Shown: piece by piece, positions 139-16,080 of the stretch
How positions within the stretch are numbered: position 1 is the first letter of the stretch
How the letters are laid out: each line of letters starts with the position of its first letter
Assembly: GCF_003289645.1 (NCBI RefSeq)
Contig: NZ_QLYX01000001.1
Coordinates: forward strand, 1-64,000
DNA: 64,000 nucleotides
Source of the DNA: Actinomadura craniellae
Lineage (GTDB): Bacteria > Actinomycetota > Actinomycetes > Streptosporangiales > Streptosporangiaceae
Direction of reading: 5' to 3'
Program-made: the position numbers and the translations under genes
Notes under the pieces: generated by a model
The model's input: only the letters and a program-made list of their open reading frames with translations
Database searches by the model: none
What the model was told of the DNA's origin: nothing

Positions 139-1557
139 CTAGCTCCGGCCGGTGGGCGGGTTCGACAGGTACATCCAGCCCTCGGCGGCCATCTCCTTGA
201 CCTGCACGGTGACGCGCTGGTACCGGTCGGGGTCGATGCGCCCGGGGGTCTGCCGGACCGTCGTCTCGTAGACGAAGGCCGAGGTGATGAAGCCCAGGTC
301 GGCGGCGGTCTCGGCGAGCGCGCCCTTGAGGGCGGGAGCGTCCAGCAGCCGGGCGGCGTTGATGATCGCGTACCCGGTCACGCCGGCGTCGTCGGCGACG
401 ACCGGCCCGACGTCCAGCGCGGCCCGCAACTGGATGCGGGTGGCCGGGACCGCCCTGCGGTTGTGCTGCCGCAGGCGGGCGGCCAGGTCCGTCAGGAGCG
501 GGTCGGTGAGCGCGCGGGTGGGCGTTTCGGGGCCGGCGATCACCAGGACTCCGTCGCCCCGGTCCTCGTGGTGGCAGGCGTCCCAGGACAGTCCGCAGTG
601 TTCGAGGGCGTCCCGCAGCAGCGCGTACATGACGTTCCGGACGGTGCGCCGGTCCTCGTCGTCGCGGTGCCGGCCGCCGAATCCGGCGATGTCGGTGTAG
701 AGGATCGAGCAGTTCTGGCCCGCCCAGTGCTCCCGGCCGCCGCCGCGGGCGGGGAGTTCCCCGGTGAGCCGCTGGTAGATCTCGTGTTCCAGCAGGCTGA
801 GCACCCGGGGATGGGCGTTCAGGAACGCCCCGAAGGCCGCGGTGGACACCAGCATGGCGTGTACCGGGCCGAGCGCGCCGACCGTGGCGGAACGGCGCCG
901 CACCAGCAGCGCGGCGCGTTCCCCGATGATGTCGCCGGGCCCGCGCCGGGCGATGAGCCGCTCGCCGCCGGCCCTGGTCAGGATGATTTTCACCTGGCCC
1001 GTCCGGATGATCAGTACGTGGTCGGCGGGCGCCCCCTCCTCCCACAGCACGGCTCCCGCCGGGAAGGTCGCGTCGTGGGCCATCGCGTCCAGCGCGTGCC
1101 GTTCAGCTTGGGTGAGCCGCAGCCAGAACGGAAGGGCGTCCCCGGGACCGGCGCCGCCCAGGGCGTCCTCGTGGGCGGGCGGCCCGGCGGGCCCGGGGAC
1201 GGGCACGTCCGGCGGGCGGGTCGTACCGGCCGGGGGGAGGGCCGGACCGTGTCCGTCGCCGGTGCGGCGGAAGATCGCGGTGAAGGCCGCGGCGTCGCTC
1301 GCCTTGAGCGCCCGTACCTCCTCCACCGTCGTGGCGACCTCGCGCCCTCTGCTGGTCAGCTCCATCTGGTTGCGGGTGAAGCCCGCGACGGGGACGGCGG
1401 CCAGCATCAGCACGCCGGCGACGCAGGCGCCGAGGCCACCGGCGACCAGGCCGCCGGCGACGAGGGCCGACGGGATGCCGGCGAGCAGCACGAGCAGCCT
1501 CAGGTGGGCAGCCACGCGTGACCGACGGGACCCGCCGGGGGTGCGCGTCCGTGTCAT
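139..1557 (-). CDS. Membrane protein with cyclic-nucleotide-binding and nucleotidyl-cyclase-like domains
   Basis: 472 residues. Two hydrophobic helices lie at about 19-61, then a linker, a Crp-type cNMP-binding fold at about 150-260 (FPAGAVLWEEG, then GDIIGE), and a class III cyclase-like domain at about 280-465. The latter keeps the first metal Asp in YTDIAGFG and a GDG turn in EDRGDGVLVI, but I cannot see a clear set of base-specifying and transition-state residues, so activity is doubtful. The ATG at 1557 follows a GGGGG-type ribosome site; an open frame runs further upstream but has no such site. It is divergent from an XRE regulator. A sensor in which a bound nucleotide controls the cyclase-like module is inference. 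A shorter, similar cyclase-like protein lies at 58014-58661. Confidence 0.75.
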   Translation of the reverse strand: MTRTRTPGGSRRSRVAAHLRLLVLLAGIPSALVAGGLVAGGLGACVAGVLMLAAVPVAGFTRNQMELTSRGREVATTVEEVRALKASDAAAFTAIFRRTGDGHGPALPPAGTTRPPDVPVPGPAGPPAHEDALGGAGPGDALPFWLRLTQAERHALDAMAHDATFPAGAVLWEEGAPADHVLIIRTGQVKIILTRAGGERLIARRGPGDIIGERAALLVRRRSATVGALGPVHAMLVSTAAFGAFLNAHPRVLSLLEHEIYQRLTGELPARGGGREHWAGQNCSILYTDIAGFGGRHRDDEDRRTVRNVMYALLRDALEHCGLSWDACHHEDRGDGVLVIAGPETPTRALTDPLLTDLAARLRQHNRRAVPATRIQLRAALDVGPVVADDAGVTGYAIINAARLLDAPALKGALAETAADLGFITSAFVYETTVRQTPGRIDPDRYQRVTVQVKEMAAEGWMYLSNPPTGRS

Positions 1558-2040
1558 GCCCGCCCCCTCATCCGGGCGGGCCGGGACGGCCGGGGGAGGG
1601 GACGGCGGCCGGACGTGGCGGGCCCGTTGGGACGTGCCGGTCGGGGTGTGGGCGCATCGGGGGTTCCCTGTGCGGAGCGGTGGGGAGGGGCGGGAATGGG
1701 AATGCACGGCCGGTTCTCCGGTTCCCTCCGCGGCGCGGATCCGAGGCGGCTCCCGTGCGCCCGGATTCGCGATCTTCGCGAAGATGGTGTTTCTTAACGT
1801 CTCATGGCAACTGATGTCTCTATGTCTTATACCGTGATGCTACCTTGCATACACTAACCCGACTGTATGAAATAGGACAGAACGCTCGGGGGAGCAATGC
1901 ATGGAGGATCGGTGCATGGAAGCCATGTGTGCCGTGCCCTGGCGCCGGGTTGTAGTCTGAGATGGCCCCTGCTGTCGGCTGGCCTCCGGCTATCTGGCTG
2001 AACTTTGGCATCCTGTGACTACGGAGAGTGTGATCCATAT
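1558..2040. other. 483-bp divergent intergenic region
   Basis: Control region between the cyclase-like gene and the XRE regulator. The half next to the XRE gene (about 1786-1880) is much richer in A+T than the surroundings and probably holds promoters. It contains a 14-bp palindrome (1772-1785) and a direct repeat of TGCATGGA at 1898 and 1913. I see no convincing gene in it. Confidence 0.5.
1772..1785. promoter_or_regulatory. Perfect 14-bp palindrome, candidate operator
   Basis: ATCTTCGCGAAGAT reads the same on both strands. It sits at the edge of the A+T-rich part of the divergent region upstream of the XRE gene. An operator for that regulator or another dimeric protein is inference. Confidence 0.4.
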
Positions 2041-2913
2041 ATGGCGACCGGCTACGGACCTGTTGTCCAGAGCGCGCTGCTCAGGAATGAGCTTGTACGG
2101 CTGCGCAGGGAAAGGAAGCTGACGCAGGAGCAGGTGGCGCGGGATCTGGAGTGGTCGCCCAGCAAGTTGATCCGCATCGAGGGCGGCAAGACGAGCATCA
2201 CCAAGTCCGACCTCCAGGTGCTGCTGCTCCAGTACGGGGTCACCGGCGGTGAGCAGGCCGACCGGCTCCAGGAGCTCGCCCGGGGGGCCCGGGAGCCCGC
2301 CTGGTGGAACATCTACCGGGGGCAGATCCCCGACATCTTCTACGCCTTCCTCGGTTACGAGGCCGGGATGTCCTATCTGCGCGACTACCAGGGGTCGGTG
2401 ATCCCGGGCCTGCTGCAGACCCCCGAGTACGCCGAGATCATCACCTCCGGCGCGGTGGGGCCGGTGGAGGTCGGCACCGTGGTCCGGATCAGGCTGCAAC
2501 GCCAGCAGGAGGTCGCGCAGCGCGAGAATCCGCCGGAGCGCACCTACATCCTGGACGAGGCCGTGATCAGGCGGCACGTCGGAGTGAAGCGCGACCCCGG
2601 CATCATGCCGGCCCAACTCGCCCATCTCGCTCGGATCGCCCGTGAGGACGACCACGTGACGGTCAGGGTGATCCCCTTCAGCGTCGGTGCCCATCCGGGC
2701 ATGCGGGAGGGGTCCTTCGCGGTGCTGGAGTTCGAGGCCGGCCTCAGCGACGTGCTCTACCAGGAGGGCGGGCGAGGTCCGAGCGTCATGTTCACGGGCG
2801 ACGACCCCCTCATCTCCGACTACCGCGATGCCTTCGAGATCCTCCGTGAGGAGTCGCTGTCCCCGGAGAAGTCGGTGGCTCTGATCGAAGAGGCCGCCGA
2901 GGCCATGATGTAG
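2041..2913 (+). CDS. XRE-family transcriptional regulator with DUF5753 domain
   Basis: 290 residues. An N-terminal helix-turn-helix at about 13-68 carries LRRERKLTQEQVARDLEWSP, followed by a C-terminal DUF5753-type domain (LGYEAGMSYLRDYQGSVIPG, later VIPFSVGAHPG). I take ATG 2041, with GGAGAG 12 bp upstream; the frame also opens at a TTG 36 bp earlier. A DUF397 protein follows 233 bp downstream on the same strand. This XRE-DUF397 pairing is a hallmark of the whiJ-like loci of sporulating actinomycetes, where the small protein is thought to act with the regulator. A second such pair lies at 42045-43250. Confidence 0.9.
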   Translation: MATGYGPVVQSALLRNELVRLRRERKLTQEQVARDLEWSPSKLIRIEGGKTSITKSDLQVLLLQYGVTGGEQADRLQELARGAREPAWWNIYRGQIPDIFYAFLGYEAGMSYLRDYQGSVIPGLLQTPEYAEIITSGAVGPVEVGTVVRIRLQRQQEVAQRENPPERTYILDEAVIRRHVGVKRDPGIMPAQLAHLARIAREDDHVTVRVIPFSVGAHPGMREGSFAVLEFEAGLSDVLYQEGGRGPSVMFTGDDPLISDYRDAFEILREESLSPEKSVALIEEAAEAMM

Positions 2914-3456: not shown

Positions 3457-5133
3457 CTAGCCCTCCGGGCTTTCGTTCAGCAGCACGATCACCTGGGCCG
3501 CCACCGTGGGGTCCATGCCGGCCAGGATCTCGGCGGCCAGCGCGGCGTCGGTGGCGGCCAGGACGGCGGCCGTCGCCCGGGGACGCACGTGGTTCAGCAC
3601 CCGGCAGACCCGGGGGACGAACCGCGTAGGCCGACCGGAACCGGGCGGCGGTGCGGGCCGGGCCGACTGCGCGGACCGGGTGAACATGGCTTCGATCACC
3701 GGCACGGCGGTATCCGTGTCGGGTGCCAGCGCCTCCACCACCAGCGCGGCGGGACGCAGGCTCATCCGCGTGAGGATTTCGGCGGCCCGGGCGGGTCCCA
3801 GCAGCGGCAGCAGCGTCACCGCGGTCCGTGTCCGAGCGTGATCGAAGATGCCGCTCACGGCCCGTGCCGGCATGAGGCGCAGGAGGGCGGCGAAGCGTTC
3901 CAGGTCGCCCGCGGCACCGACGATGGCCGCCGCGGGCTTGTCCTCCATCCGGGCCAGGATCTTGGCGGCGTGATCGGGCGGAAGGGAAATCAGGACTCGC
4001 GCCGCCGTCTGCGGCAGCGCATGACCCAGGACGCCGCCCGCGTTCTCCACGGACATCACGCCGATCACCGCTGCCGCGGCGGGCCCGGCCGACAACCTGT
4101 CCAGCATGTCACCGGCCCTGCGGTGACCCGCCCGGTACAGGATCTCGGCGGCCTTGGCCGGCTCCTTCTCGGCGATGGCCGCGAACCGGGAACGCGGGCC
4201 CGTCGGAGTGGACGGGTCCGGGGTGGGCGTGGGCGGCGGTGTCGGCGACGTTCGGCTGTCCGGCGGTGGCGGCCCGGGCTTTCCGCCGTTCCCCGGTCGG
4301 CGCGTCGGGGGGCCCGCCGCGATCGGCCCGAGCCGTTCCAGGGCCTCCCGCGCGCCGATCCGGGTGCGCGGGTTCTTGTCGAGCAACCGGAGGATCACCT
4401 CGGCGAGCCGGTCCGGGCGCGGCAGCGGCGGGGGGGCCTCGTGCAGGATGGCGGCGATGGTGGCGGCCTCGTCCCCGCGGCGGAAGGGTGACCGGCCGGT
4501 CGCGGCATGGTAGAGGGTCACTCCCAGCGACCAGAGGTCGGAGGGCTCCTCCGCGGGCGAGCGGTGGGCGAACCGTTCGGGGGCGATGAACTCGAAGGTC
4601 CCCACCAGCCGGCCCGTCCGTGTGATCGTCTCCTGGCCCGCGATGGTCGCGATTCCGAAGTCGACGAGGACGGCCTCGTTCGACTCCTGCTCGACGAGGA
4701 CGTTGGAGGGCTTGACGTCGCGATGCACCACGCCCACGGTGTGGGCGGCGCTCAGCGCTTCGAGCATGGCCCGGCCGATCCGGGCGATCCCGGATTCGTC
4801 GAGCGCCGGATGACGTCGGCTGATCAGGTCGTCGAGCGACCGGCCGTCGATGTACTCCATCACGATCCACGGGTCGTCGTCCTCGTCGAAGACGTCGTAG
4901 ATCGTGATGATGTTGCGGTGCCGTCCGAGCCGGGCGACGGCCCGGGCCTCCCGCTTGGCCCGGGCCCGGAGGTCGTCGAGTTCCCGGCCGCGCCGGGCGC
5001 GCTGCGAGAGGAGGATCTCCTTGAGCGCCACCCGGCGGCCGAGGGTCTCGTCGTGGGCGAGCCAGACGCTGCCCATCCCGCCCTCGCCCAGCTTCCGCAG
5101 CAGCCGGTAACGACCCGCGACGTAGTCGGTCAT
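3457..5133 (-). CDS. Ser/Thr protein kinase with C-terminal MgtE-N-like helical repeats
   Basis: 558 residues. The kinase domain spans about 8-270: glycine loop GEGGMGSV (16-23), catalytic Lys38, HRD 137-139, DFG 158-160 and APE 184-186, so it looks active. A Pro/Thr-rich linker (about 275-305) leads to an all-alpha region (about 310-555) with repeated A-A-x-I-L-x-x-M/L elements (AAEILYRAG, AAKILARM, AAEILTRM, AAEILAGM), resembling the N-terminal domain of MgtE/FliG-type proteins. There are no PASTA repeats and no obvious membrane helix, so this is not a PknB-type kinase. The next gene upstream on the strand, DUF4407, ends 34 bp before this start, suggesting one transcript. I infer it belongs with the divergent GTPase operon. 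Confidence 0.88.
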   Translation of the reverse strand: MTDYVAGRYRLLRKLGEGGMGSVWLAHDETLGRRVALKEILLSQRARRGRELDDLRARAKREARAVARLGRHRNIITIYDVFDEDDDPWIVMEYIDGRSLDDLISRRHPALDESGIARIGRAMLEALSAAHTVGVVHRDVKPSNVLVEQESNEAVLVDFGIATIAGQETITRTGRLVGTFEFIAPERFAHRSPAEEPSDLWSLGVTLYHAATGRSPFRRGDEAATIAAILHEAPPPLPRPDRLAEVILRLLDKNPRTRIGAREALERLGPIAAGPPTRRPGNGGKPGPPPPDSRTSPTPPPTPTPDPSTPTGPRSRFAAIAEKEPAKAAEILYRAGHRRAGDMLDRLSAGPAAAAVIGVMSVENAGGVLGHALPQTAARVLISLPPDHAAKILARMEDKPAAAIVGAAGDLERFAALLRLMPARAVSGIFDHARTRTAVTLLPLLGPARAAEILTRMSLRPAALVVEALAPDTDTAVPVIEAMFTRSAQSARPAPPPGSGRPTRFVPRVCRVLNHVRPRATAAVLAATDAALAAEILAGMDPTVAAQVIVLLNESPEG

Positions 5134-5167
5134 GGGGACCTTTCGTGTTCGTGTCCCGTGGTGCGCG

Positions 5168-6634
5168 TCAGTTCCGCCACTCGTCCGAGGGCCGGTGCCA
5201 GGGGGAGCCGAGGTCGAGGTCGTCGTCGAGGGCCCCGGTGTCGGTTCCGCCGACCGGCGCCCCGTTGGGAGGCGGCACGTCCCTCGGATCGCGGGGCGCG
5301 GAGGAGCGCGGCTCGGACTCGAACTGGTCGGTCATCCGGCGCAGCCGGTCGTCCTCCCAGGGATCGTGCGGCCCCTGGGCGGAGAAGGGGGCGGACTGGC
5401 CGTCGCCCGCCCAGGGATCCTCGTGCAGCGGCGTGGTGGGACGCGGTGGCCGCGGCGGCGGGACGGGGTCGTCCCAGATCTTCTCGATGGATTCCTGGCC
5501 GCCCAGGATCTTGTCCATCTGATCCTGCTTGATGTGCTCCTCGGCCACCCGCATCTGCGCGTTTTCCTTAATCTTGCGGATCTTGTCGTAGTTGCTGGGC
5601 GGGCCGAACGTCTGCATCAGCTTCACAATGATCGGCAGACACTCGATGGCCATGATGAAGGCCAGCAGGATGAGGCGCGCGGAGTTCAGGGTGTCGTTGG
5701 TCTTGGCCACCTCATCGAGGGCCTTGAGCCGGATCAGCAGCCCGGTGGACGCCTTGTTCTTGGCCTCGAAGGCCGTTTGGGCGGCCTGCTGTTGGTCGCG
5801 TAGCGCGGTGAGGCGCTCCTGGGCTTTGGGCAGTTCCTTCCGCGCATAGTCGAGGCGGGTGGCCCGGCTGTTTCTGTCGCCGGCGGTGAGTTCCTTCTTG
5901 CGGTCCTCGATCTGCCTGTTCAGGCTGCTCAGCCGGGCTTGGGCCTGGTCGTGCTTCTTTTTGGTGGCGTTGGCCAACGGCCCCTGACCGGCGTTGCATG
6001 TCCGGCCGTTGTAGGACCCGTCGAGTTGGCATCGCCATTCCGCGTAGAGGGCATCCACCGTCTTCTGCTGGTCATCGCGCTGTACGGTCAGCCCGCGCAC
6101 TTTCGGATCGGTGTTGGGGTCGATGCTGTCGGTGCCGCGGGATGTGATGACCTTCTGCAAGCCGTCGACTTCCCGCTGGCGCTGCGTGATCTCTTTACCG
6201 ACGTTGCCGCGCTGCTGCTCCGCGAGGAACTTGTCGGATTCGGCTCGCTGGATCTGGGAGATCTGGGCTTCGATTTCCGGCCGGAATATCTGAAGTACCA
6301 GGGGGTGGGATATGACGATGCCGAAAAGCAGGGCGAGGAGGAGCCGGGGAACGGCCGTCATAATGTTCTTCCAGGCCTTTTCCTGGCCCTGGATCGACCC
6401 CACCAGCCAGCGGTCGAGGCTCATGATCGCAAGCCCCCAGAGCATCCCGGCGCCGAGGGCCAGGGGCAGGGGGACGTTCAGTGCCGTGTTCAGGGCGAAG
6501 ACCATGGAGATGGCCGCCATGCAGGCGGTGATGAGGACGGCGCTGCCGATGCCTTCGTACTTGCCGCGGTCGGTCGGGCATTCGGCGAGGATTTCGGCCT
6601 GGGCTCCGGAGAGCCATATCAGAAAGCGTCTCAC
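5168..6634 (-). CDS. DUF4407 membrane protein with long coiled coil
   Basis: 488 residues. Hydrophobic helices lie at about 28-51, 58-77, 91-117 and 315-340. Between the third and fourth is a long charged coiled coil (about 118-310) with two cysteines (CQLDG, TCNAG). The tail (about 390-488) is acidic and Pro-rich. The order (RFLIWLSGA start, LDRWLVGSI, coiled coil, last helix) fits DUF4407, a family of unknown function. It opens the two-gene unit with the kinase; its acidic tail could be a phosphorylation or docking platform (inference). Confidence 0.85.
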   Translation of the reverse strand: MRRFLIWLSGAQAEILAECPTDRGKYEGIGSAVLITACMAAISMVFALNTALNVPLPLALGAGMLWGLAIMSLDRWLVGSIQGQEKAWKNIMTAVPRLLLALLFGIVISHPLVLQIFRPEIEAQISQIQRAESDKFLAEQQRGNVGKEITQRQREVDGLQKVITSRGTDSIDPNTDPKVRGLTVQRDDQQKTVDALYAEWRCQLDGSYNGRTCNAGQGPLANATKKKHDQAQARLSSLNRQIEDRKKELTAGDRNSRATRLDYARKELPKAQERLTALRDQQQAAQTAFEAKNKASTGLLIRLKALDEVAKTNDTLNSARLILLAFIMAIECLPIIVKLMQTFGPPSNYDKIRKIKENAQMRVAEEHIKQDQMDKILGGQESIEKIWDDPVPPPRPPRPTTPLHEDPWAGDGQSAPFSAQGPHDPWEDDRLRRMTDQFESEPRSSAPRDPRDVPPPNGAPVGGTDTGALDDDLDLGSPWHRPSDEWRN

Positions 6635-6972
6635 ATGCTGCTCTTTCTTGCGTGTTTGGTTATAGACGAACCGCGGAATAAGGGTTGGCCGAAACCCACT
6701 TGCGAAGGTTCCCCGTGCAAGATCGACGCTCGTTGCCCCGTTACCCCGTTGCCCCTGCGTGCCGGTGAAGCTCTAGTTTGCCCCCACTTGCATACCTTAC
6801 TTGTGTTACTTAAAGGTATTCCGGGACTGTGTAACATTACGCACTCGTGGCCCGGTTGTGGGTGTGTATGTTTTGATAGCTATCGGGCTCTACTGGTCAT
6901 AGGGGTGCATGGCCAATATGTGGGGGCGAGTTCCGGCATGGCCGGAATGTACATGAGGAGTCAGGCGCGGGG
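6635..6972. other. 338-bp divergent control region of the GTPase locus
   Basis: It separates the leftward DUF4407-kinase unit from the rightward vWA-GTPase-GAP1-Hsp70 operon. It is richer in A+T than its flanks, especially about 6780-6900. It holds GATAGCTATC (6875-6884) and a spaced palindrome (6931-6947). No gene is supported. Confidence 0.5.
6931..6947. promoter_or_regulatory. Spaced palindrome upstream of the vWA gene
   Basis: TTCCGGC (6931-6937) and GCCGGAA (6941-6947) are perfect arms around ATG. They lie 25 bp upstream of the first start of the operon and may be an operator or a short 5'-leader hairpin. Confidence 0.4.
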
Positions 6973-8778
6973 ATGAGATCGTCGATTCCGGCAGATTCGG
7001 AAGAACCCACCTCCATGGGATGTCCGGTCTGCAACCGGAAAATCGAGACGGGCCCGGCCTGCCGGCACTGCGGGTGGGCGCTGGAGACGCCCTGGTGGTT
7101 CGCCGACGAGCCCGAGGCCGAACAGCGCCGTTTCGACGAGCGGCTGGCCCGGGCCCGCCGTGCCTTCGACGCCGTCGCGATGGCGCGTGTCTCCCCGATC
7201 GAGGGCCGCTGGAGCCGCTGCATCCGAGGCGGAGCGCCGGACGAGCGGGAGTGGGCCCAGGCGGTGCGGGCCGCGCGCCCCGCCCAGCGGCCCGCCGATG
7301 TCGCACCGCAGGAGGCACTGTCGGACGCGCTCGCCGACCTGGGCGGTGAAGACGGCCTGACCGTAATCGAGGTCGGCGGGCAGGGGATCGCCGTGTTCGC
7401 CGTGTCCCCGGACCGGCAGGGCGCGCTGCGCGGCGGGCCCGCGGGTGCGCCGGCCCCGTGGACCGAACTGCTGCCGATGCTGGCGGCGGCCCCGGAGGAA
7501 CGGTCCTTCCAACTCGCCGGCGGTCTCGCCGGGTTCGACCACGACCGCCTGTGGGCGGCGCTGGAGACCGCCGTCCTGGAGATCGCCGGAACCCTCCCGG
7601 AGGGCCCCACCGTCGTGCTGTGCGGGGTACCGGGCTGGCCGGTGCCGGAACGCGCCGTGGAACTGCTACGGCTGAACCGCACCGGTGCCCAGGTCGTCCG
7701 GGGCGCCCTGCCGGAGATCGGCGGCCTGCTCGACGAGCTGATCGCGGCGGGTCCGCTGCGCCAGGCGTACGAACTCGTGCTGGCCGTGGTGGACCCGGAG
7801 TCCCGGCGGATCGGGCTACGCTCCCGCCCGCTGTTCTCCGCCGGTGCCCGGACCGGCGACGAGGCGTCGCTGACGGTGTACTGCGCGCCGTCCGACGCCG
7901 ACGGCACGGTGTTCGCCGTGGTCACCTGGAAGGGCAACCGCGAGCCGCGTCCCCTGTCGGTCTCCTCGGTGAAGCTGCCGCCCGGACCGCACCAGGTCCG
8001 GGCGGTGCTGGAGGCCGCCGGCCGGATCCGCTTCCTGGAGCCCGCGGGTCTGTCCCCCGACCCCCGGTCATGGGCCACGCTCGTCGGCCTGGTGCCCGAA
8101 CGCTACGACCCCCCGGCCCCCGCGGTCGACCTGATCTGCGCGGTGGAACTGGCGGGTGACCGGGACGACGTGGAGGCCCGGCTGCGGCTGCTCCGCGGGC
8201 TGGTCAAACTGCTGGACGGGGAGGCGGCCGAGCCCGGGCGGCTCAGGATCGCGCTGCTGGGCTACGGCGCCCACGCCTTCGACTCCCGGCTGGGGGAGGG
8301 GAAGGTCGTCCGCGGCGCCTGGCTGGCGCCTCCCGCGGAGGTGCTGGGCTCGATCTCGCGGCTGCGGTACGCCGGGCCGGGATACCCGGCGGCCGCCCCG
8401 GTGGAGGACATGCTCGTCCAGGTGGCGGGGCGATGGCGGCCCGCTGACGGGCGCAAGGCCGTCCTGCTGACCGTCGGCGGCCGGTCGCCGCACCCGGCCG
8501 AGGCGGGCGAGCACGCCGTTCACCCCTGCCCGCACGGCCATGACTGGGACCGGCTGCTGGGCCGGCTCGAACGCGCCGGCCTCGCCCGGGTGGCCGTGGT
8601 CGACCGACCGCAGGGCGGCGCCCAGAACGTGTGGCCGCGGCTGGGGGACACCGCCCTGCACGGCCTCGCGGACGCGGACCCCCGACAGCTCGGCATCGAC
8701 ATCGGCGTCCTGGCGCCGCGCGACAGCAGACTCCCTTTTCCCCTGCCGACGAAAACGAGGTATGCCGATGAACCATGA
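6973..8778 (+). CDS. Zinc-ribbon protein with degenerate C-terminal vWA-like domain
   Basis: 601 residues. A treble-clef or ribbon-like CPVC...CRHC zinc site lies at about 16-34. The middle is unassigned. The region from about 375 to 540 follows a vWA fold: VDLICAVELAG at the first strand, ALLGYGAH, then YAGPGYPAAAPVEDML, and VLLTVGGRSPHP at the position where active vWA domains have T-D-x-P-P-H. The MIDAS metal residues (DxSxS and the late Asp) are replaced, so the domain probably binds a partner rather than metal. I take ATG 6973 with GAGGAG 12 bp upstream; ATG 7015 is an alternative. The gene overlaps the GTPase by 11 bp. In known ternary systems a vWA protein, an NTPase and a GAP1/vMAP protein act together. 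Confidence 0.7.
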   Translation: MRSSIPADSEEPTSMGCPVCNRKIETGPACRHCGWALETPWWFADEPEAEQRRFDERLARARRAFDAVAMARVSPIEGRWSRCIRGGAPDEREWAQAVRAARPAQRPADVAPQEALSDALADLGGEDGLTVIEVGGQGIAVFAVSPDRQGALRGGPAGAPAPWTELLPMLAAAPEERSFQLAGGLAGFDHDRLWAALETAVLEIAGTLPEGPTVVLCGVPGWPVPERAVELLRLNRTGAQVVRGALPEIGGLLDELIAAGPLRQAYELVLAVVDPESRRIGLRSRPLFSAGARTGDEASLTVYCAPSDADGTVFAVVTWKGNREPRPLSVSSVKLPPGPHQVRAVLEAAGRIRFLEPAGLSPDPRSWATLVGLVPERYDPPAPAVDLICAVELAGDRDDVEARLRLLRGLVKLLDGEAAEPGRLRIALLGYGAHAFDSRLGEGKVVRGAWLAPPAEVLGSISRLRYAGPGYPAAAPVEDMLVQVAGRWRPADGRKAVLLTVGGRSPHPAEAGEHAVHPCPHGHDWDRLLGRLERAGLARVAVVDRPQGGAQNVWPRLGDTALHGLADADPRQLGIDIGVLAPRDSRLPFPLPTKTRYADEP

Positions 8779-9799
8779 TGACCGGACGATGCGCCGCATC
8801 GGGTTGTGGGGTGCGCCGACCAGCGGCAAGACCTCTTTCCTGGCCGCTTTGAACATCGCCGTCACGCAGAGCAGCGAGGAGTGGACGATCTTCGGGGTGG
8901 ACGACCCCTCCGTCGACTTCCTCGTCGACAGCACGACCACCCTCACCCACGAGCGCCGGTTCCCGCCGGCCACCGAGGCGCTGTCGGAACTGAGCTGGAT
9001 CCTGATGAGCGAGACGGAGGTGGAGATCGGCACCCGCCGGCGCAAGGAGACCAAGAAGATCCCGCTGGAACTCCACCTGGACGTGCTCGACGCCCCCGGC
9101 AGGGTCTTCGGCCACAAACCCAAGACGGACGCCCACCAGTCCCAGCTCGAAGGGCTCGGCTTCGACGACGAGGACGAGGGGATGGACGGCGCGGGCGGCG
9201 GCTCCGAACTGGACGAGGAGAAGCTGATCGACAACCTGGCGGACTGCGACGGCATCGTCTACCTCTTCGACCCGATCCGGGAGCGCGAGAAGGGGGACGC
9301 CTTCCAGTACTTCCAGCGCACGCTCGCGCTGCTCGCCAAGCGGTCACTGGAGGGCCGGCGGCTCATCAACGGGAGGCTGCCGCACCACTTCGCCGTCTGC
9401 ATCACCAAGTTCGACGAGCCGAGGGTCTACCAGACGGCGAAGGCCCGGGGGTACATCACCTTCGACCCCGACGACAAGCACATGTTCCCCAAGGTCCATC
9501 CCGACAACGCGGAGAACCTGTTCGAGGACCTGTGCCAGGTCGCCTCGGCGCGCGAGGCCGCACTGGTGCACGGCTCGATCAAGAGGTACTTCCGCCCGGA
9601 GCGGGTGCGTTACTTCGCGACCTCGGCGGTCGGCTTCTACCTCGCGCCCCGGACGGTGCGCTTCCGGGCCTCGGACTACCAGAACGTGGTGCCCGACGGG
9701 GGCGAGGGCTACCGCATCCGTGGCGACATCCATCCCATCAACGTGCTGGAACCCCTGTTGTGGCTGGGGCGCCAGCTCTCGAGCGAGACCGGGCGCTGA
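8768..9799 (+). CDS. P-loop GTPase of the ternary system
   Basis: 343 residues. G1 is GAPTSGKT at 15-22, a G3-like LDVLDAPGR lies near 105, and TKFD near 213 fits G4, which gives guanine specificity. An acidic insert (DDEDEGMDG) follows the G3 region. ATG 8768 is preferred over ATG 8762 because GAGG at 8757-8760 is 7 bp from it. It overlaps the vWA gene by 11 bp and is followed 15 bp later by the GAP1-like gene. It is probably the regulatory switch of the complex; in related systems a MoxR AAA+ ATPase can take this place. Confidence 0.85.
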   Translation: MNHDDRTMRRIGLWGAPTSGKTSFLAALNIAVTQSSEEWTIFGVDDPSVDFLVDSTTTLTHERRFPPATEALSELSWILMSETEVEIGTRRRKETKKIPLELHLDVLDAPGRVFGHKPKTDAHQSQLEGLGFDDEDEGMDGAGGGSELDEEKLIDNLADCDGIVYLFDPIREREKGDAFQYFQRTLALLAKRSLEGRRLINGRLPHHFAVCITKFDEPRVYQTAKARGYITFDPDDKHMFPKVHPDNAENLFEDLCQVASAREAALVHGSIKRYFRPERVRYFATSAVGFYLAPRTVRFRASDYQNVVPDGGEGYRIRGDIHPINVLEPLLWLGRQLSSETGR

Positions 9800-9814
9800 G
9801 GAGCGGGGGGATCC

Positions 9815-12517
9815 ATGGTGCGCGTCGAGGTGGAATGGGCGCTGTACGGAAAGCGCGCGGGAGAGCGCGACGACTACTCCGTGCTGGCGGCCAGCCGGGG
9901 CCTCTTCCAGCCCGCGCAGTTCGAGGGGATCATCACCCGCTTCTCTCCCGGCAACCCGGACGTTCCGAGCGCGCTGCCGAGGGTGACGTTCAGCTGGGTC
10001 GCCCCCAACGACCAGCCGTATCTGGGCATGGCGATCCAGGAGACGTCCGGGAAGAAGGACGGGGTCGGCCGGGCGATCACGCGGACCCGGTACTTCTGCC
10101 TGCCCTACGAGCAGGTCGCCCGGCACCCGGTGACCCTGCTGGGCCTGTACGAGGCGTTGCAGGGCCTGGAGCCGGCCGAGCCGGGCGGGGCGGCGCTGCA
10201 TGTGGATGTTCCCGAACTCGTACCGCAGGCCGTCGCCGACGACATCGCCAAATACGGGGACCACACCGTCCGTGAGACGGCGGCGTTGCTGCTCACCGGA
10301 CGCTCGGTCTGTGTCCTTCAGGCCGAGGACGTCCCGCTGCTCGACCGGCTGCGTTTCCTCGACGCAGTGCTGGGCCTGCTGCCCTACGGATTCCGCACCC
10401 GGCTCGCCGCCTCCACCTGGACCAACAGCGCCTCACCGCACCGGATCCGGCTCTCGTTCGCCAAGCGGGCCAGGGATTCCGCGGCGGCGGTGCCCTGGCG
10501 GACGCAGAAGGCCCTGGTGTCCCCCGACGAGGCGGTCGCTTACACGTACCTGAAGCAGCTCACCGGCCTGCTGGAGGGGAGCCGGGGGCATTCCGGCCTC
10601 GGCCCGGTGCAGCTCGTCCGGGCGCTGGCCGCCGAACGCGAGCCGCGGAAGTTCGACGAGCCGCAGGAGGCCAAGCGCACGTTGCTGACCATCGGCGGGC
10701 CGTTCACGGAACTACTCAAGATCCGCGAGGACGCCGCGGATCCCGCCCGGGTGTGGGAACTGTTCGGCGAGGACGCGCCGCAGATCTGGGACCTGGGACC
10801 CGCCGAGCGGCGCGAGGTGCTGACCTACCTGATCAAAAAGCATCAGGACCGCCAGGAGTGGGGGCGCATCCGGCGGTGGTGGGAGAAGGTCGTCGGGGAG
10901 ACGTCGTCCCCGCTGGAGGAGGCCCTGGTCGAGACGGCCGGCCACCGCCTGTGGGCCCGCCCCACCCGGGAGGTGGGGCACCTGCTGGAGCACGCTCGCG
11001 ACCACGGTTCGGTCGATCGCTTCCTGGCCGGGCTGCTGGACTTCCCCCGGACGCAGGACGCGCTCGAGGCCGGTACCGCGGCGATGTCCCGGCTGCTGCG
11101 CCAGGAGATCATCGAGGGGGCGGGGCCGGACGCGTTCTGGGCGACGCGGGACGGGATCGCCCGGAACCCATCGGTGTTCCACCGGCTGATTGCGGACCTG
11201 GTGGCCGGGGGGACGACCGAGGAGTTCACCCGTCTCCTGGACTGGCTGGCTCCCGTGATGCCCCAGGAGACGGCGCCGTTCCGTTCGATCCTGGAACTGC
11301 GCCGGCCCACCCCGGCGCAGCTCGACACCCTGGAACAGGGCGGCTATGACCGCGTCCGCGCCGCGCTGCTGATGAACAGGGGTTTCGGCAGGGGGCAGAA
11401 CCTGCTGACGCCGGCGTTCGAACGGTGGCTGGGCCCCCAGGGGCCACCGGCGCTGCGCGACCTGGTTCTGCGCGCCTTCCGGTGGTGGCTGGACGACACA
11501 CCGTCCCTCGGCCAGGAGGAGCGCGGCCGCTGGATCGCGCTGCTCGGGGACGCCCGGCCGCACCGGCCGGACCAGCGGGCGTCCATCGACGTGCTGCTGA
11601 TCGCGCTGGGCGGCCGGCCGGTCGCCCTGCCGCACGTGCCCACCAAGGACTGGCCCGCGTACGTGGAGGGGTTCGAGGCGGTCTGGACCGCCTCGTGGAC
11701 GATGGAGAGCCGGGCGAGGCTGATGGAGGGGACGCTGCGTTACCTCTCCGGCCCGGACTGGCGGAACCACTCCCGCGACCTGCTCGACGTCCGGCGGCTG
11801 GTCCGGCAGCTGGCCGACCGCACCGCCGAGAAGATCCCGGGCGGCGACGCGCGCCTGCGGGATCTCCTCTACGACCTCGATCGCCCGCCCGTGCCGCGAG
11901 CGGCCCTGCCACAGCCCTCCGGCCCCGCGGAGCAGAAGGCGCTCACCGACTGGATGGCGCAGGGCCACGGCCACCCGCAGGCGGAGCGCCGGCCGTCCCC
12001 GGAGAACGCCGACGACGTCCTGGAGTACATCACCCAGGCCCATCTCAACGGCCACGACCGCGAGCAGGTCTACGCCCTCCTGGCCCGGGAGAAGCGGCTC
12101 CAGTCGTCCGCGGTCGCCCTCGAAGTGCTGTGGCGGCTGAGGGGACACCTGGTGGAGAAGACCGGGATCGAGGGGAAGGAGGCGGTGTCCTGGTGGGTCG
12201 ACCTGGCCCTGGAGATCGAGGCCGAGCGCTTCGGCAGCCCCCTGGCCGGGCACTTCCGGACCCACGTCATGGTCGCCTTCCCCCGGCACATGCTGGACAT
12301 GCTGTACCTGATGGAACTGGTGGCCCGGCGGGGCGACTTCGACCAGCCCCCGGACTTCGCCGCCAAGGACCGTAAGGAACTGGAGGAACTCCGGCGCGTC
12401 ATCGACGGGCTGCTCTCGGAGGCCAGGCGCAGGGGCGGCCGGCGGCGCGGCAACCGCTCGGCCGGCCGGGAGGAGGACGCCAGGACCGAGCAGCGATCCG
12501 AGGAGCCGGCCGGATGA
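9815..12517 (+). CDS. GTPase-associated protein 1 (GAP1)-like large protein
   Basis: 900 residues, no membrane helix. The N-terminus (WALYGKRAGERDDYSVLAAS) and the following alpha/beta region resemble the GAP1-N2 type domain that comparative genomics has linked to GTPases in bacterial conflict systems. The rest (about 230-880) is largely helical with no catalytic motif I recognise. The basic tail (RRRGGRRRGNRS) could bind nucleic acid or membrane. The stop overlaps the start of the Hsp70-like gene by ATGA. The family assignment is from pattern memory and needs an HMM check; the link to the GTPase is firm from synteny. Confidence 0.7.
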   Translation: MVRVEVEWALYGKRAGERDDYSVLAASRGLFQPAQFEGIITRFSPGNPDVPSALPRVTFSWVAPNDQPYLGMAIQETSGKKDGVGRAITRTRYFCLPYEQVARHPVTLLGLYEALQGLEPAEPGGAALHVDVPELVPQAVADDIAKYGDHTVRETAALLLTGRSVCVLQAEDVPLLDRLRFLDAVLGLLPYGFRTRLAASTWTNSASPHRIRLSFAKRARDSAAAVPWRTQKALVSPDEAVAYTYLKQLTGLLEGSRGHSGLGPVQLVRALAAEREPRKFDEPQEAKRTLLTIGGPFTELLKIREDAADPARVWELFGEDAPQIWDLGPAERREVLTYLIKKHQDRQEWGRIRRWWEKVVGETSSPLEEALVETAGHRLWARPTREVGHLLEHARDHGSVDRFLAGLLDFPRTQDALEAGTAAMSRLLRQEIIEGAGPDAFWATRDGIARNPSVFHRLIADLVAGGTTEEFTRLLDWLAPVMPQETAPFRSILELRRPTPAQLDTLEQGGYDRVRAALLMNRGFGRGQNLLTPAFERWLGPQGPPALRDLVLRAFRWWLDDTPSLGQEERGRWIALLGDARPHRPDQRASIDVLLIALGGRPVALPHVPTKDWPAYVEGFEAVWTASWTMESRARLMEGTLRYLSGPDWRNHSRDLLDVRRLVRQLADRTAEKIPGGDARLRDLLYDLDRPPVPRAALPQPSGPAEQKALTDWMAQGHGHPQAERRPSPENADDVLEYITQAHLNGHDREQVYALLAREKRLQSSAVALEVLWRLRGHLVEKTGIEGKEAVSWWVDLALEIEAERFGSPLAGHFRTHVMVAFPRHMLDMLYLMELVARRGDFDQPPDFAAKDRKELEELRRVIDGLLSEARRRGGRRRGNRSAGREEDARTEQRSEEPAG

Positions 12518-13716
12518 CCGGCCCGCTGCACGCGGCGCTGGACGTGGGCGCCGCGACGACGAAGCTCGCACTGGTCGGCGCGGCGGCACCGGTGGCGCTC
12601 GAACGGCCGACGCCCGCTGGTGGCCTGGCCGGCTTCCTGCGGGACCTGCTGGTGGAAGGCCGCTCCCAGGTACCGGGAGAACCCGGCTCGATCACGGTCG
12701 TCACCCCCGAGGCGTGGTTCGACGGGGGCGAGCGCGGGGCACGCGCCCAGGAGGAGATGCGCGAGATCGTCGCCGGGCTCGGCTGGCCGGAGACGGCGTG
12801 GGTGGGCCAGGTGGCGGCCGCGGCGGCGCGGGCCGCCGCGCGGCACCGGTTCGAGGTCCCGGGCCCCTATCTGGTCTGCGACGCCGGGGCGAGCGGGGTG
12901 ACCGTCGCCAGGTGCGAGGTGACGGGCCGTACCGTCCTGCCGTGCGAGGTGGCCGAAGGCGGCCCCGGCGCGAGCGTCGGGGGGCGGGCCTACGAGACGA
13001 CGTTCGCCGGGCGCCGGCCGATGGGCACCGCGCTCGACCTGCCGAGCCTGGTGCGGGAGCACGGGGACCTGATCAGGAGGGTGCTCGACCGCACCGTGGA
13101 CGACCGGAGGGGACGGACGGAGCCGTTGCTGGGCGAGGGGGTGGTGACCGTCGCGGAACTGGCGCGAGGCTTCGCCCCGACCGCCGAGTGGATCGGTACG
13201 GCCGTACCCGTGCTGCTGGCCGCCCGCCCGCCGGCCCAGGCGGTGGTGACCGGCGGGTTCGGTGAGTTCCCGCTGGTGGAGCGGGCGGTGCGGGCGGCGA
13301 CGGGGGTGGAGCCGCAGGTGCTCGGCCGGTTCGGTGCGGTGGAGGGCGCGTTGCTCATGGCCCGGGGCCGGGCGCGCGCGGCGGTTTTCGACGTTCCCGA
13401 CGTGTCCGTCGCGGTGAGCCGGGTCAAGGACGGGCTGCTGGAGAGCCACTGGGTGCGGGTGAACCCGCGCTCGGCGCCGTACGCGTACTTCCGCGGCGAT
13501 CCGCTGGTGGTGGAGACCGGTGCGGAGAGCGCCCGGATCCGGCTGAAGGTGAGCGGGCGGATCACGGCCGTGGTGCCCCCGCCGCTGGCCGGCGGCCACC
13601 ATCTCGCCTTGCATCCGGCCCGGTCCGGCCCCGGGACGCTCGTCTTCAGACCGGTGGGAGGCGGACCGAGCGTCCTGGTGCCCCTGGGCCCCGGCCGGCC
13701 CCGCGACGACCCGTGA
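12514..13716 (+). CDS. Hsp70/actin-fold ATPase-like protein
   Basis: 400 residues. Three ATPase-fold signatures are visible: phosphate-1 LDVGAATTKLALVG (about 9-22), phosphate-2 VCDAGASGVTVA (about 119-130) and an adenosine-type VVTGGFGEF (about 244-252). It lacks the substrate-binding domain of DnaK; instead a beta-rich C-terminal part of about 100 residues follows. Translation is coupled to the GAP1-like gene by a 4-bp ATGA overlap. A chaperone-like or polymerising component of the same complex is inference. Confidence 0.78.
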   Translation: MTGPLHAALDVGAATTKLALVGAAAPVALERPTPAGGLAGFLRDLLVEGRSQVPGEPGSITVVTPEAWFDGGERGARAQEEMREIVAGLGWPETAWVGQVAAAAARAAARHRFEVPGPYLVCDAGASGVTVARCEVTGRTVLPCEVAEGGPGASVGGRAYETTFAGRRPMGTALDLPSLVREHGDLIRRVLDRTVDDRRGRTEPLLGEGVVTVAELARGFAPTAEWIGTAVPVLLAARPPAQAVVTGGFGEFPLVERAVRAATGVEPQVLGRFGAVEGALLMARGRARAAVFDVPDVSVAVSRVKDGLLESHWVRVNPRSAPYAYFRGDPLVVETGAESARIRLKVSGRITAVVPPPLAGGHHLALHPARSGPGTLVFRPVGGGPSVLVPLGPGRPRDDP

Positions 13717-13721
13717 CCGCG

Positions 13722-13751
13722 GCCGGGGTCAGCCGGGATCAGCCGGGGTCA
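13722..13751. repeat. Three tandem 10-bp repeats
   Basis: GCCGGGGTCA, GCCGGGATCA and GCCGGGGTCA lie head to tail between two convergent genes; the last copy contains the stop codon of the acyl-CoA dehydrogenase. Confidence 0.7.
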
Positions 13752-14834
13752 GATGCCCACAAGGTCGGCGAAGTTACGGCGGTGGTGGGCCGGGGAGCCG
13801 AAGAGCAGTTCGGCCGACTTGGCCCGCTTGAAGTGCAGGTGGGCGTCGTGCTCCCAGGTGAAGCCGATCCCGCCGTGGATCTGGATGTTCTCGGCCGCGG
13901 CGGTCAGGTAGGCCTCGGAGCAGTACGCCTGGGCCAGCGCCGCAGCGGCGGGCAGGGCGGCCGGGTCCGTGTCGGCGACGGTGGCGGCGTACAGCACCGC
14001 CGACCGGGCCGACTCCACCGCCAGCAGCATGTCGGCGCACTTGTGCTTGATCGCCTGGAAGGAGCCGATCGGCCGGCCGAACTGGTGCCGGACCTTGGCG
14101 TACTCCACGCTCATCTCCAGCACCCGCTGTGCTCCACCGACCTGCTCGGCGGCCAGCGCGACCGCGGCCAGGTCCAGCGCCCGGGCCACCGCGGCGGCGG
14201 AGTCCGCGACCGGGCGGGCGGGCACGGAGGCGAAGTCGAGCCGGGCCAGCCTGCGGGTCTGGTCCAGGGTGGTCAGCGCGGTCCGGTCCAGGCCGGGGGC
14301 CGTGCCGTCCACCACGAAGAGCGCCGGCCCGTCCGGGGTGCGGGCGACCACCAGGAGCAGGTCGGCGACGTGCCCGTCGAGGACGTGCGTGCGGGTGCCG
14401 TCGAGCGCCCAGCCGGCCTGGGCCGGTGCCGCGGTCACCCGGCCGTCCTCCTCGCCGGCCGCCAGCGTGGCCAGCGTGGTGCCCGCCGCGATGCCGGGCA
14501 GCAGTTCCCGGCGGGCCGGCTCGTCGCCGCACGCCGCGAGCGCCCCCGCGGCCAGCACCGCGCTCGACAGGTAGGGGGCGCAGACGAGCGCCCGGCCCAT
14601 CTCCTCCAGCGCGACCGCCTGCTCGCGCATCCCGTACCCGGCGCCGCCGTACTCCTCGGGGACGGCCAGCCCGGGCAGCCCGAGCTCGCCCGACAGCCGG
14701 GCCCAGAACGCGGGGTCGTACCCCTCGGCCGTCGCCATGCGGCGGCGGACCTCGGCGCTGGGAGAGGTGTCGGTGAAGAAGCGGCGCAGCGCGGTGCGCA
14801 GTTCGGCCTGCTCCTCGGTGACGGCGAGTTCCAT
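13749..14834 (-). CDS. Acyl-CoA dehydrogenase family protein
   Basis: 361 residues, close to the usual length. The N-terminal helical domain has VPEEYGGAGYG; the C-terminal domain has RHQFGRPIGSFQAIKHKCAD and IHGGIGFTWEHDAHLHFKRA, typical of FAD-dependent acyl-CoA dehydrogenases. The middle beta domain is divergent and lacks the usual F-x-x-T-E-P motif. It stands alone, converging on the Hsp70-like gene and 31 bp from the histidine kinase stop. The substrate cannot be told. ATG 14834. Confidence 0.9.
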   Translation of the reverse strand: MELAVTEEQAELRTALRRFFTDTSPSAEVRRRMATAEGYDPAFWARLSGELGLPGLAVPEEYGGAGYGMREQAVALEEMGRALVCAPYLSSAVLAAGALAACGDEPARRELLPGIAAGTTLATLAAGEEDGRVTAAPAQAGWALDGTRTHVLDGHVADLLLVVARTPDGPALFVVDGTAPGLDRTALTTLDQTRRLARLDFASVPARPVADSAAAVARALDLAAVALAAEQVGGAQRVLEMSVEYAKVRHQFGRPIGSFQAIKHKCADMLLAVESARSAVLYAATVADTDPAALPAAAALAQAYCSEAYLTAAAENIQIHGGIGFTWEHDAHLHFKRAKSAELLFGSPAHHRRNFADLVGI

Positions 14835-14865
14835 GCCCGGCCTCCTCGGCGATCGCGCCGGCAGC

Positions 14866-16080
14866 CTATCCGGGCAGCCGCACGGTGACGATCAGTCCTC
14901 CCCCTGGCCGGGACTCGGCGCGGACCTCCCCGCCGTGCGCGGTGGCGATCGCGCGGACGATCGAGAGCCCCAGCCCGGCCCCGCGGTCGGAACCGACCCG
15001 CTCGGTGCGCAGCCGGCGGAAGGGTTCGAACGCGGCCTCCACCTCGTAGGGGGGCACCACCGGCCCGGTGTTGCTCACCACCAGCTCGGCGCGGCCGTCG
15101 CGGTGGCCGGTGGACACCCGGAACTCGCCGCCGGGGACGTTGTGCCGCATCGCGTTCTCCACCAGGTTCTGCACCAGCCGCTCCAGCAGGACCGGATCGC
15201 CCGAGGTGGGCGCGGGCAGCAGCGACCGGCGCGCGACCACGTCGGGGCCGGCGCCGGCGTCCTTGGTCACGTCGATGACGTGGCCGGCGATGTCGGCCAG
15301 GTCCACCGGGGCGCGCTCGATGACCGTGTTCTCACCGCCGGCCAGCGTGAGCAGCCCGTCGATCAGCCGTTCGTGCCGCGTGTTGACGACGAGCAGCGCG
15401 TCGCCGAGCCGCCTGACGTCTTCGGTGGCATCGGGGCGGCGCAGTGCCACGTCCACCAGGGTCCGGTTGATGGCCAGCGGGGTGCGCAGCTCGTGCGAGG
15501 CGTTGGCGACGAACCGGCGCTGCCCGTCGAAGGAGCGGGCCAGCCGGGCCAGCATGACGTCGAAGGTGTCGGCCAGTTCCTTGACGTCGTCGCGCGGGCC
15601 GGTGTAGCCGATCCGCTCGGTGAGGTTGTGGCTGGCGGCGACCCGCCGCGCCGTCTCGGTGACCTGGTGCATGGGGCGCAGCGCCCGCCCGGCCATCAGC
15701 CAGCCCAGGCCGCACGCCGCGGCGCCGACCAGTCCCAGCGCCAGCCCGCCCTGGGTCAGCAGCGAGTTGAGCGTGTCGCGCTCGTACTCCTTGCGGGCCT
15801 GGACCAGGTCGCCGCGCAGCCGCTCGAAGAAGATCGCCTGTTCCGGGGTGAGCCGTAGCTGGCCCTTGTCCACCGCGAACGTCTTGTTCGCCGGGTCCTG
15901 CTGGAGCGCCACCAGGTCCGGCAGCCGGGAGGCCACCGGCCCGTTCCGGCGCTCCAGGCTGTGCGCCATGAGCACGTACGTGAGGCCGAGCAGCAGGGCC
16001 CCGGCCGCGAAGAACAGCCCCCCGTACAGCAGGGTGAGCCGGCCCCGGATCGTCAGGCCGGGCAGGCGGAACCGGCTCAT
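14866..16080 (-). CDS. Two-component sensor histidine kinase
   Basis: 404 residues. Membrane helices at about 13-37 and 121-143 flank an extracytoplasmic loop of about 85 residues. HAMP follows, then the H-box ASHELRTPL with the phosphoacceptor His near 198, N-box NLVENAMRHN, and G-box GAGLGLSIVRAIA. ATG 16080 overlaps the response-regulator stop by ATGA, so the two are translationally coupled. With the divergent MacAB-like operon it probably forms an envelope-stress or drug-sensing unit (inference). Confidence 0.93.
   Translation of the reverse strand: MSRFRLPGLTIRGRLTLLYGGLFFAAGALLLGLTYVLMAHSLERRNGPVASRLPDLVALQQDPANKTFAVDKGQLRLTPEQAIFFERLRGDLVQARKEYERDTLNSLLTQGGLALGLVGAAACGLGWLMAGRALRPMHQVTETARRVAASHNLTERIGYTGPRDDVKELADTFDVMLARLARSFDGQRRFVANASHELRTPLAINRTLVDVALRRPDATEDVRRLGDALLVVNTRHERLIDGLLTLAGGENTVIERAPVDLADIAGHVIDVTKDAGAGPDVVARRSLLPAPTSGDPVLLERLVQNLVENAMRHNVPGGEFRVSTGHRDGRAELVVSNTGPVVPPYEVEAAFEPFRRLRTERVGSDRGAGLGLSIVRAIATAHGGEVRAESRPGGGLIVTVRLPG

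Follow-up and report, generated by a model that had tools for sequence, protein, structure and literature searches.

A six-gene locus at positions 3457 to 13716 of the window, by which we mean the whole 64,000-nucleotide stretch analyzed (Actinomadura craniellae, assembly GCF_003289645.1, contig NZ_QLYX01000001.1), combines a GTPase, a GAP1-like protein of about 900 residues, a protein with a degenerate vWA domain, and an Hsp70-like ATPase with a divergently encoded protein kinase and DUF4407 membrane protein. We tentatively read it, with confidence a little short of even, as a membrane-linked GTPase-switch signaling module of GAP1-N2/DO-GTPase stock, most likely serving a conflict-type membrane response. 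Counted in favor of this reading are the gene order in related loci, the kinship of the GTPase to DO-GTPases, matches to GAP1-M, a fast-evolving tail on the GAP1-like protein, the TagF- and DENN-like fold predicted for its head, and the association with DUF4407. Comparison with relatives separates the six genes into core genes, an arm made up of the kinase and the membrane protein, and an Hsp70-like part that is optional. The parts of the locus in the window are as follows.

3457 to 5133, minus strand: Ser/Thr protein kinase with a C-terminal MgtE_N/FliG-like helical domain (Pfam)
About 4336 to 5109, minus strand: kinase domain, residues 9 to 266 (Pfam)
About 3910 to 4164, minus strand: MgtE_N domain, residues 324 to 408 (Pfam)
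5168 to 6634, minus strand: DUF4407 membrane protein (Pfam and hydropathy scan)
6635 to 6972, or to 7014 with the later vWA start: divergent intergenic region between the two units (gene calls and sequence)
7015 to 8778, plus strand: zinc ribbon and degenerate vWA protein, with the vWA fold predicted at residues 365 to 567, about 8107 to 8715 (AlphaFold2 model)
8762 to 9799, plus strand: DO-GTPase-related GTPase (hhalign)
9815 to 12517, plus strand: GAP1-like protein, entire gene (synteny and weak profile matches)
9815 to 10696, plus strand: its conserved head, residues 1 to 294, predicted to resemble TagF and the DENN module in fold (model)
10697 to 12517, plus strand: its fast-evolving, predicted alpha-helical tail, from residue 295, with helices to about residue 877 (model, identity, and the ratio of nonsynonymous to synonymous substitution rates, dN/dS)
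12514 to 13716, plus strand: Hsp70-like actin-fold ATPase with a C-terminal extension (hhalign and motifs in the alignment)

Named genomes were scanned with a GTPase alignment, and the top 80 of 140 relatives, ranked by their similarity to the GTPase of the window, yielded 79 distinct loci (L079 to L157); because the loci were picked in this way, the class shares given here are not frequencies in nature. With the window added, the set numbers 80 loci. The GAP1-like gene lies directly downstream of the GTPase gene in 79 of the 80 loci and a vWA gene directly upstream in 69, an order far beyond chance. In class A (46 loci), a kinase-DUF4407 pair diverges from the vWA, GTPase, and GAP1-like genes. 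Class B (16 loci) follows the order radical SAM, coiled coil, double AAA, vWA, GTPase, GAP1-like, Hsp70-like, coiled coil; of these loci, 15 have the radical SAM and first coiled-coil genes, 14 the last gene, 10 DUF4407, and 1 a kinase. The 64 loci with an adjacent vWA gene and at least 3.8 kb of upstream sequence comprise 45 of class A, 16 of class B, and 3 that have DUF4407 without such a kinase. The original prediction had made the kinase/DUF4407 arm part of the system, and those 45 of 64 loci bear this out, the pair co-occurring with the GTPase operon in other genomes; within the window's own family, all seven hit genomes, the window's included, show the kinase and DUF4407 genes divergent from vWA-GTPase-GAP1. 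The prediction had also treated all six genes as one fixed system, which did not hold, the Hsp70-like gene being present in just 1 of 46 class A loci and a hallmark of class B. Its 22 carriers among the 80 loci are the 16 class B loci, two cut-off loci (L086 and L131), three Frankia loci, and the window.

The locus in the window looks INTERMEDIATE, that is, intermediate between the class A and class B architectures, because no other class A locus has an Hsp70-like gene and because the window GTPase falls next to class B in the tree. In a tree of 82 of 84 GTPases, built by a quick method and containing some long branches, the window groups with Actinoallomurus purpureus, Thermomonospora, and two Actinomadura loci (support, 93). 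This group adjoins 33 rows (support, 92) that come from class B, Frankia, and other loci, and the resulting 38-row set is separate from the other 41 class A rows. A. purpureus, the nearest named relative by GTPase (64% identity), has no Hsp70-like gene downstream of GAP1. With upstream extension allowed, an N-terminal zinc ribbon pattern was found in 15 of 16 class B and 3 of 47 class A vWA proteins; the three belong to the five members of the window's group (the window, A. purpureus, and Thermomonospora), and none of the 42 other class A proteins has one.

The class B cluster at L088:3472-15948, a larger system, extends from the radical SAM gene through the final coiled-coil gene. Elsewhere in the window, positions 32133 to 35744 (minus strand) encode a large protein that carries two AAA modules plus AAA_lid_6; over about 500 residues it shares 44% identity with the L088 class B AAA protein, a likeness that may reflect just a common CbxX-type family. 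Two loci of family f17 (L043 and L045) each contain two GTPase-GAP1 units facing each other, with nearby kinase-like genes and with GTPase genes that cluster with canonical DO-GTPases.

Among the six proteins, Pfam matches above cut-off were confined to the kinase, with its MgtE_N domain, and the DUF4407 protein. The vWA-like, GAP1-like, and Hsp70-like proteins had no Pfam match at E ≤ 1, and NCBIfam gave none above cut-off for these three or for the GTPase. The GTPase call of the original prediction was upheld by motif conservation in 84 homologues (G1 in 83, G4 and G5 in 84 each, DxxG in 80) and by profile comparison with DO-GTPases in hhalign (probability, 99.5; E = 1.2e-22), the comparison set (alignment A5) being six canonical-locus GTPases and five related genes from Frankia-like f17 loci. 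The Pfam DO-GTPase2 model was matched by 23 of 27 relatives (best E, 5.3e-5) and by the window GTPase at E = 0.094. In the comparison set G200 and E201 are invariant; the window GTPase lacks this Walker-B glutamate (DAPGR), and a glutamate directly follows DxxG in 4 of the 80 homologues that have DxxG. N-terminal zinc ribbons are not present in the window GTPase, which starts a few residues ahead of the P-loop. These features suggest a lineage related to the DO-GTPases as a sister rather than as a member.

Synteny and weak profile matches point, weakly, to GAP1 as the identity of the 900-residue protein. The earlier call of a GAP1-like protein stood in part: GAP1-M was reached by 10 of 26 relatives (E ≤ 1; best, 0.013, below cut-off), no other Pfam model being matched by more than one of the 26, and the window protein itself had no Pfam match. 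Among ten relatives scanned for the place of the match, four had a GAP1-M match at E ≤ 5; in three the E value was below 0.05 and the match lay at residues 164 to 274. No profile search placed the protein in an unrelated family. It is nonetheless conceivable, although we think it unlikely, that the protein has nothing to do with GAP1 and is an unrelated partner of the GTPase that came to occupy the same position. The lack of a Pfam or NCBIfam match for the window protein fits that explanation, as does the hhalign comparison with canonical GAP1, which gave E = 0.00097 and 21.9% probability with the smaller alignment and weakened to E = 0.071 with the larger one. Canonical GAP1 proteins were also not ranked clearly when a pool of neighborhood proteins was searched with head profiles, save for one at E = 0.036 with the smaller alignment. 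The GAP1-M matches argue the other way, as do the overlapping stretches aligned in both hhalign runs and the clear kinship of the partner GTPases to DO-GTPases. Alignments A1 (26 of 29 cluster members) and A2 (27 of 28) were made with cut-off or fragment rows dropped, and A7 holds 65 of 66 GAP1-like proteins picked from 94 by length and contig.

In the AlphaFold2 model of the GAP1-like protein (predicted local distance difference test [pLDDT], 87.0 overall; predicted template modeling score [pTM], 0.66), residues 1 to 115 run strand, strand, helix, three strands, helices, an order that we take to be that of longin domains; an alpha/beta part follows, and then helices to about residue 877. As a lead only, the modeled head would resemble TagF and DENN-domain Rab exchange factors in fold. 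TagF, an accessory protein of type VI secretion, was the best Foldseek match of the model in the PDB, at E = 3.6e-3, with no PDB match at E ≤ 0.001. The VIA structure comparison paired the head with TagF (PDB 9t0n; Z = 8.8, 4.5 Å, 239 residues) and, at Z values below 8, which may mean just a common arrangement, with DENND1A (Z = 7.3, 5.9 Å, 240 residues) and DENND1B (Z = 6.4, 6.2 Å, 240 residues), both in complex with Rab35. These three entries are the ones that cover the head among the 50 rows of the VIA list, which is silent on folds not in it; the rest fall on the helical part. A PDB sequence search returned only six weak matches, with E above 1 and designed-protein names.

The two parts of the GAP1-like protein appear to evolve at different speeds, with a conserved head and a tail, by prediction a helical solenoid, that is fast evolving. 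Conserved residues in the head include D82, R86, R178, D183, and an LPYG stretch. Within five class A genera, identity is 80 to 89% in the head and 54 to 70% in the tail; the corresponding values are 49 versus 27% for Acrocarpospora, 62 versus 33% for Actinoallomurus, and 87 versus 56% and 85 versus 68% for two class B Actinomadura groups. The drop starts between residues 240 and 320. The C terminus of the kinase, which is helical too, shows a smaller drop in all seven class A groups, one of which has no drop there at all. Mean dN/dS of the tail (0.55 to 0.94) was the highest of the compared parts in all seven groups, the kinase being represented by its catalytic part only; the GTPase ranged from 0.17 to 0.39. 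We count this fast tail as new evidence that would favor a conflict role.

The DUF4407 protein (Pfam E = 6.8e-84) has hydrophobic segments near residues 27 to 72, 90 to 118, and 315 to 343, and the intervening stretch looks like a coiled coil, in agreement with the coiled-coil membrane protein proposed earlier. DUF4407 was found in 55 of 296 class genomes, among them 20 of the 22 that have the GAP1-like gene, versus 35 of the 274 without it (Fisher P = 1.6e-14, kinship not corrected). Thirteen further DUF4407 loci included 11 without a GTPase. In five of these 11 (L164, L165, L166, L170, and L172), genes for proteins of 222 to 379, 663 to 770, and 322 to 431 residues precede DUF4407, and all three of the 663- to 770-residue proteins scanned matched nSTAND3 (E = 4.5e-5, 1.9e-4, and 0.031, below the curated cut-off). 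Another, L174, encodes a Dynamin_N protein (4.9e-10) and an SrfB-like protein (0.0059, below cut-off); in the other five, whose neighbors were not profile scanned, no such partner was recognized. DUF4407 thus seems to be a membrane component shared with STAND-like and dynamin-like genes elsewhere rather than exclusive to the GTPase system. In the literature searched, DUF4407 turned up in three papers, in one of which it stands as a Pfam name in a table. A CRP-like gene, read from sequence, lies near in several of the five loci that encode the 663- to 770-residue protein.

For the vWA protein, the AlphaFold2 model (pLDDT, 90.9) supports the earlier call of a degenerate domain: residues 365 to 567 match a vWA/integrin I domain (Z = 18.6, 2.2 Å, 168 residues), and the metal site is predicted to be broken, the serines of the metal ion-dependent adhesion site (MIDAS; DxSxS) having been lost. 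An acid occupies position 378 in all 65 aligned proteins (E in 62, D in 3), and a serine is found at position 380 in 10 of 65; the window has E-x-A-x-D. The zinc ribbon, with the pattern CxxC-x9-CxxC, sits on this protein in the window. The model also has an unassigned seven-strand run at residues 252 to 342; none of the six proteins had an FNIII match in Pfam at E ≤ 1. The Hsp70-like protein was assigned as predicted, its nucleotide-binding domain aligning with DnaK and three other Hsp70s in hhalign (probability, 95.75; E = 8.4e-9) over residues 29 to 303, where the alignment ends ahead of the C-terminal extension. Alignments A8 (65 of 74 vWA proteins) and A9 (18 of 22 Hsp70-like proteins) were selected by length and contig. 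The predicted Ser/Thr kinase matched Pfam Pkinase at 4.6e-51 and, C-terminally, MgtE_N at 1.1e-13. HRD and DFG motifs are present in all 46 class A kinases and MgtE_N in all 29 of the 46 that were scanned. PADLOC matches of the kinase (PD-T4-6, 3.5e-70; mad6, 4.4e-68) were confined to the kinase domain and were not taken as membership.

These assignments bear on the possibility, to our minds a quite improbable one, that the locus encodes a chaperone or assembly complex in which the vWA protein, the Hsp70-like ATPase, and the double AAA protein of class B would remodel a client, the radical SAM protein would modify it, and the GTPase would time the cycle. The Hsp70-like ATPase itself and the double AAA and radical SAM genes of class B accord with such a complex, and the whole vWA-protein model matched DnaK in Foldseek, at E values from 7.9e-8. 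In class A, however, 45 of 46 loci are without the Hsp70-like gene and none of the 46 carries the class B AAA gene at the locus, and no sequence kinship to DnaK was apparent in the N-terminal part of the vWA protein. A hidden Hsp70 piece, an actin lobe and substrate-binding sandwich at vWA residues 110 to 345, was considered on the strength of the Foldseek match, but profile comparisons with DnaK gave E = 0.25 and 0.15, and it was therefore kept just as a lead.

Under the reading that we favor, a membrane-linked GTPase switch, the conserved head would bind the GTPase and control its nucleotide state, and it might do so in the manner of a DENN-like exchange factor. Recognition of a changing target, which might be a phage or competitor protein or a variable partner in the cell, would fall to the solenoid tail, and target binding would flip the switch. 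The vWA protein may act as an adaptor or chaperone, aided by the Hsp70-like ATPase where present, and the kinase could transmit or tune the signal via its MgtE_N domain. DUF4407 would serve as membrane input or output and, given its recurrence beside other NTPase modules, might be the effector. A conflict-type function is plausible in these terms. A bolder version, which is doubtful as a whole, would make the GAP1-like proteins a bacterial counterpart of the DENN module, their longin plus DENN-like head governing the nucleotide state of a DO-type GTPase and their tail under diversifying selection and sensing invaders, DUF4407 the shared effector of GTPase, STAND, and dynamin operons, and the locus in the window a living intermediate between the two architectures. 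If this is true, bacteria would possess a DENN-like regulator of a GTPase and DUF4407 would gain a function, and a DENN-like head would bear on the origin of eukaryotic Rab exchange factors.

Several observations weigh against a conflict role and the structure proposed for it. The Pfam scan of the six proteins revealed no known effector domain, whether toxin, nuclease, or other. The gene content of class A varies only by a second GAP1-like gene in 10 of the 46 loci and by the Hsp70-like gene of the window, in contrast to systems whose effectors are swapped. In the GTPase tree, the rows of the main class A group mostly sort by genus, and GTPase gene matches included one plasmid record and no phages; the system therefore behaves as a resident gene set. 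The tail signal has its own difficulties: a single Lentzea pair showed no difference (head, 61%; tail, 60%), a tail dN/dS below 1 may reflect relaxed constraint, and tail dS was raised too in most groups, hinting at alignment error, so that part of the signal may be misalignment. To these are added the weakened hhalign match and unclear profile rankings of canonical GAP1, the Foldseek E value above 0.001, and DENN-like Z values in the range that VIA calls ambiguous.

The first of these points lend substance to the chief alternative, that the locus is a resident module for growth, envelope, or development signaling in mycelial actinobacteria, with the GTPase, kinase, and DUF4407 reading a cue internally or at the envelope and the tail fast only as a loosely constrained scaffold. 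We regard it as possible, if on balance rather improbable. It would account for a near-constant class A content across 46 loci and many Streptosporangiales genera, for the genus-following tree, for the rarity of the GTPase gene on plasmids and phages, and for the missing effector domain. It sits less well with the patchy presence of the GAP1-like gene, found by a one-protein query in 22 of 296 class genomes, which represent 9 of 115 genera, a count that misses some, since one genome (G162, L176) has the GTPase yet was counted as without. Two other observations are also at odds with it: in all seven class A groups, the identity loss from head to tail exceeds that from kinase domain to kinase C terminus, and DUF4407 recurs beside STAND-like genes. 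In the window's own genome (about 7.5 Mb, 41 contigs) the GAP1-like protein had one match. A GAP1-like protein query of the genome_contigs collection found no relatives; the GTPase alignment did find them.

Genes were called by an in-house script, and all six open reading frames (ORFs) were found in the two divergent units originally described. In the leftward unit DUF4407 comes first, followed by the kinase after a 34-bp gap. An in-frame ATG at 6973 is a possible earlier start for the vWA-like gene, so that about 340 to 380 bp separates the two units. The vWA-like and GTPase genes overlap by 17 nucleotides (nt), the GTPase having a further in-frame ATG 6 nt in; the gap between the GTPase and GAP1-like genes is 15 bp, and the GAP1-like and Hsp70-like genes overlap by 4 nt. 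A pattern scan of the divergent intergenic region found no sigma-70-like site, and two overlapping terminator-like patterns occur there at 6838 to 6868, with 0.5 expected. A rightward ORF at 13713 to 14888 was rejected as the shadow of an acyl-CoA dehydrogenase gene on the opposite strand. Adjoining the kinase gene, positions 2041 to 2913 (plus strand) encode a helix-turn-helix (HTH)/DUF5753 regulator, and 139 to 1707 (minus strand), near the same end of the locus, encode a protein with a cyclic-nucleotide-binding domain. Farther away are a DUF397 and HTH/DUF5753 pair (42018 to 43250) and a bacterial GPP34 (Golgi phosphoprotein 3) domain protein (30249 to 30866, minus strand; E = 2e-35); Kaur et al. 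2020 (PMC7159879) includes a section on linkage to DUF397 systems.

Comparison with known systems begins with the fold of the GAP1-like head. TagF is the best structural match to the modeled head, and its gene context presumably differs from that of the GAP1-like locus. With the DENN module of Rab exchange factors, the head would share the order of its elements (longin-like, alpha/beta, helices) and a GTPase partner; the difference is that the likeness, at Z values of 6.4 to 7.3 only, is known from a predicted fold and not from sequence. The DENN module is described in PMC3521125 (2012) as a longin domain, a DENN domain of alpha/beta type with five strands, and a helical d-DENN that diverges rapidly, with DENN and d-DENN known only inside the module and many homologues traced to the ancestral eukaryote. 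Literature searches judged by titles and abstracts gave nothing on point linking DENN to TagF or to bacterial longin proteins, and the words longin, DENN, and GEF are not used in Kaur et al. 2020.

Kaur et al. 2020 reserves the term "ternary" for MoxR-vWA systems and treats the GTPase-centric (DO-GTPase/GAP1) systems apart. The original label of a vWA-NTPase-GAP1 ternary module thus merged two kinds of system and is not retained. The MoxR-vWA FtsH ternary systems resemble class B in having a divergent vWA protein, a two-AAA protein, and radical SAM, but no MoxR gene was recognized in class B, whose AAA partner carries AAA_lid_6 and which has a GTPase and a GAP1-like protein; Pfam gave no MoxR-type match in the six proteins either.

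The closest comparison is with the GAP1/DO-GTPase systems predicted in 2020, which in Kaur et al. include HSP70/GrpE or kinase/PP2C/vWA themes; in the literature searched, the term DO-GTPase turned up a single time outside that paper, and the full name of GAP1 was not found outside it. A later paper listed for related terms mentions neither GTPase nor GAP1. A canonical-type locus of this kind lies elsewhere in the same genome (G000:C9:187526-197581; L070:7527-17582), with two DO-GTPase2 matches, a GAP1-M protein, one HSP70 gene (PF00012), a GrpE-sized gene, and an 864-residue gene that clusters with HSP70 genes by BLAST. The locus described here shares with the GAP1-N2/DO-GTPase systems a related GTPase beside a GAP1-like protein, HSP70, vWA, and kinase genes, a membrane link, and an actinobacterial setting. 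It differs in that its six genes have no FNIII, GrpE, or PP2C match in Pfam, its GAP1 domains stay below Pfam thresholds, and DUF4407 and MgtE are not mentioned in Kaur et al. 2020. Its GTPase is also without the Walker-B glutamate and without zinc ribbons of its own, which are usual in the GAP1-N2 type, and with both missing, we call the lineage a divergent sister variant of the GAP1-N2/DO-GTPase systems. The variant offers a handle on them: a head expected to touch the GTPase, a tail expected to touch the target, and a membrane protein recurrent in other operons.

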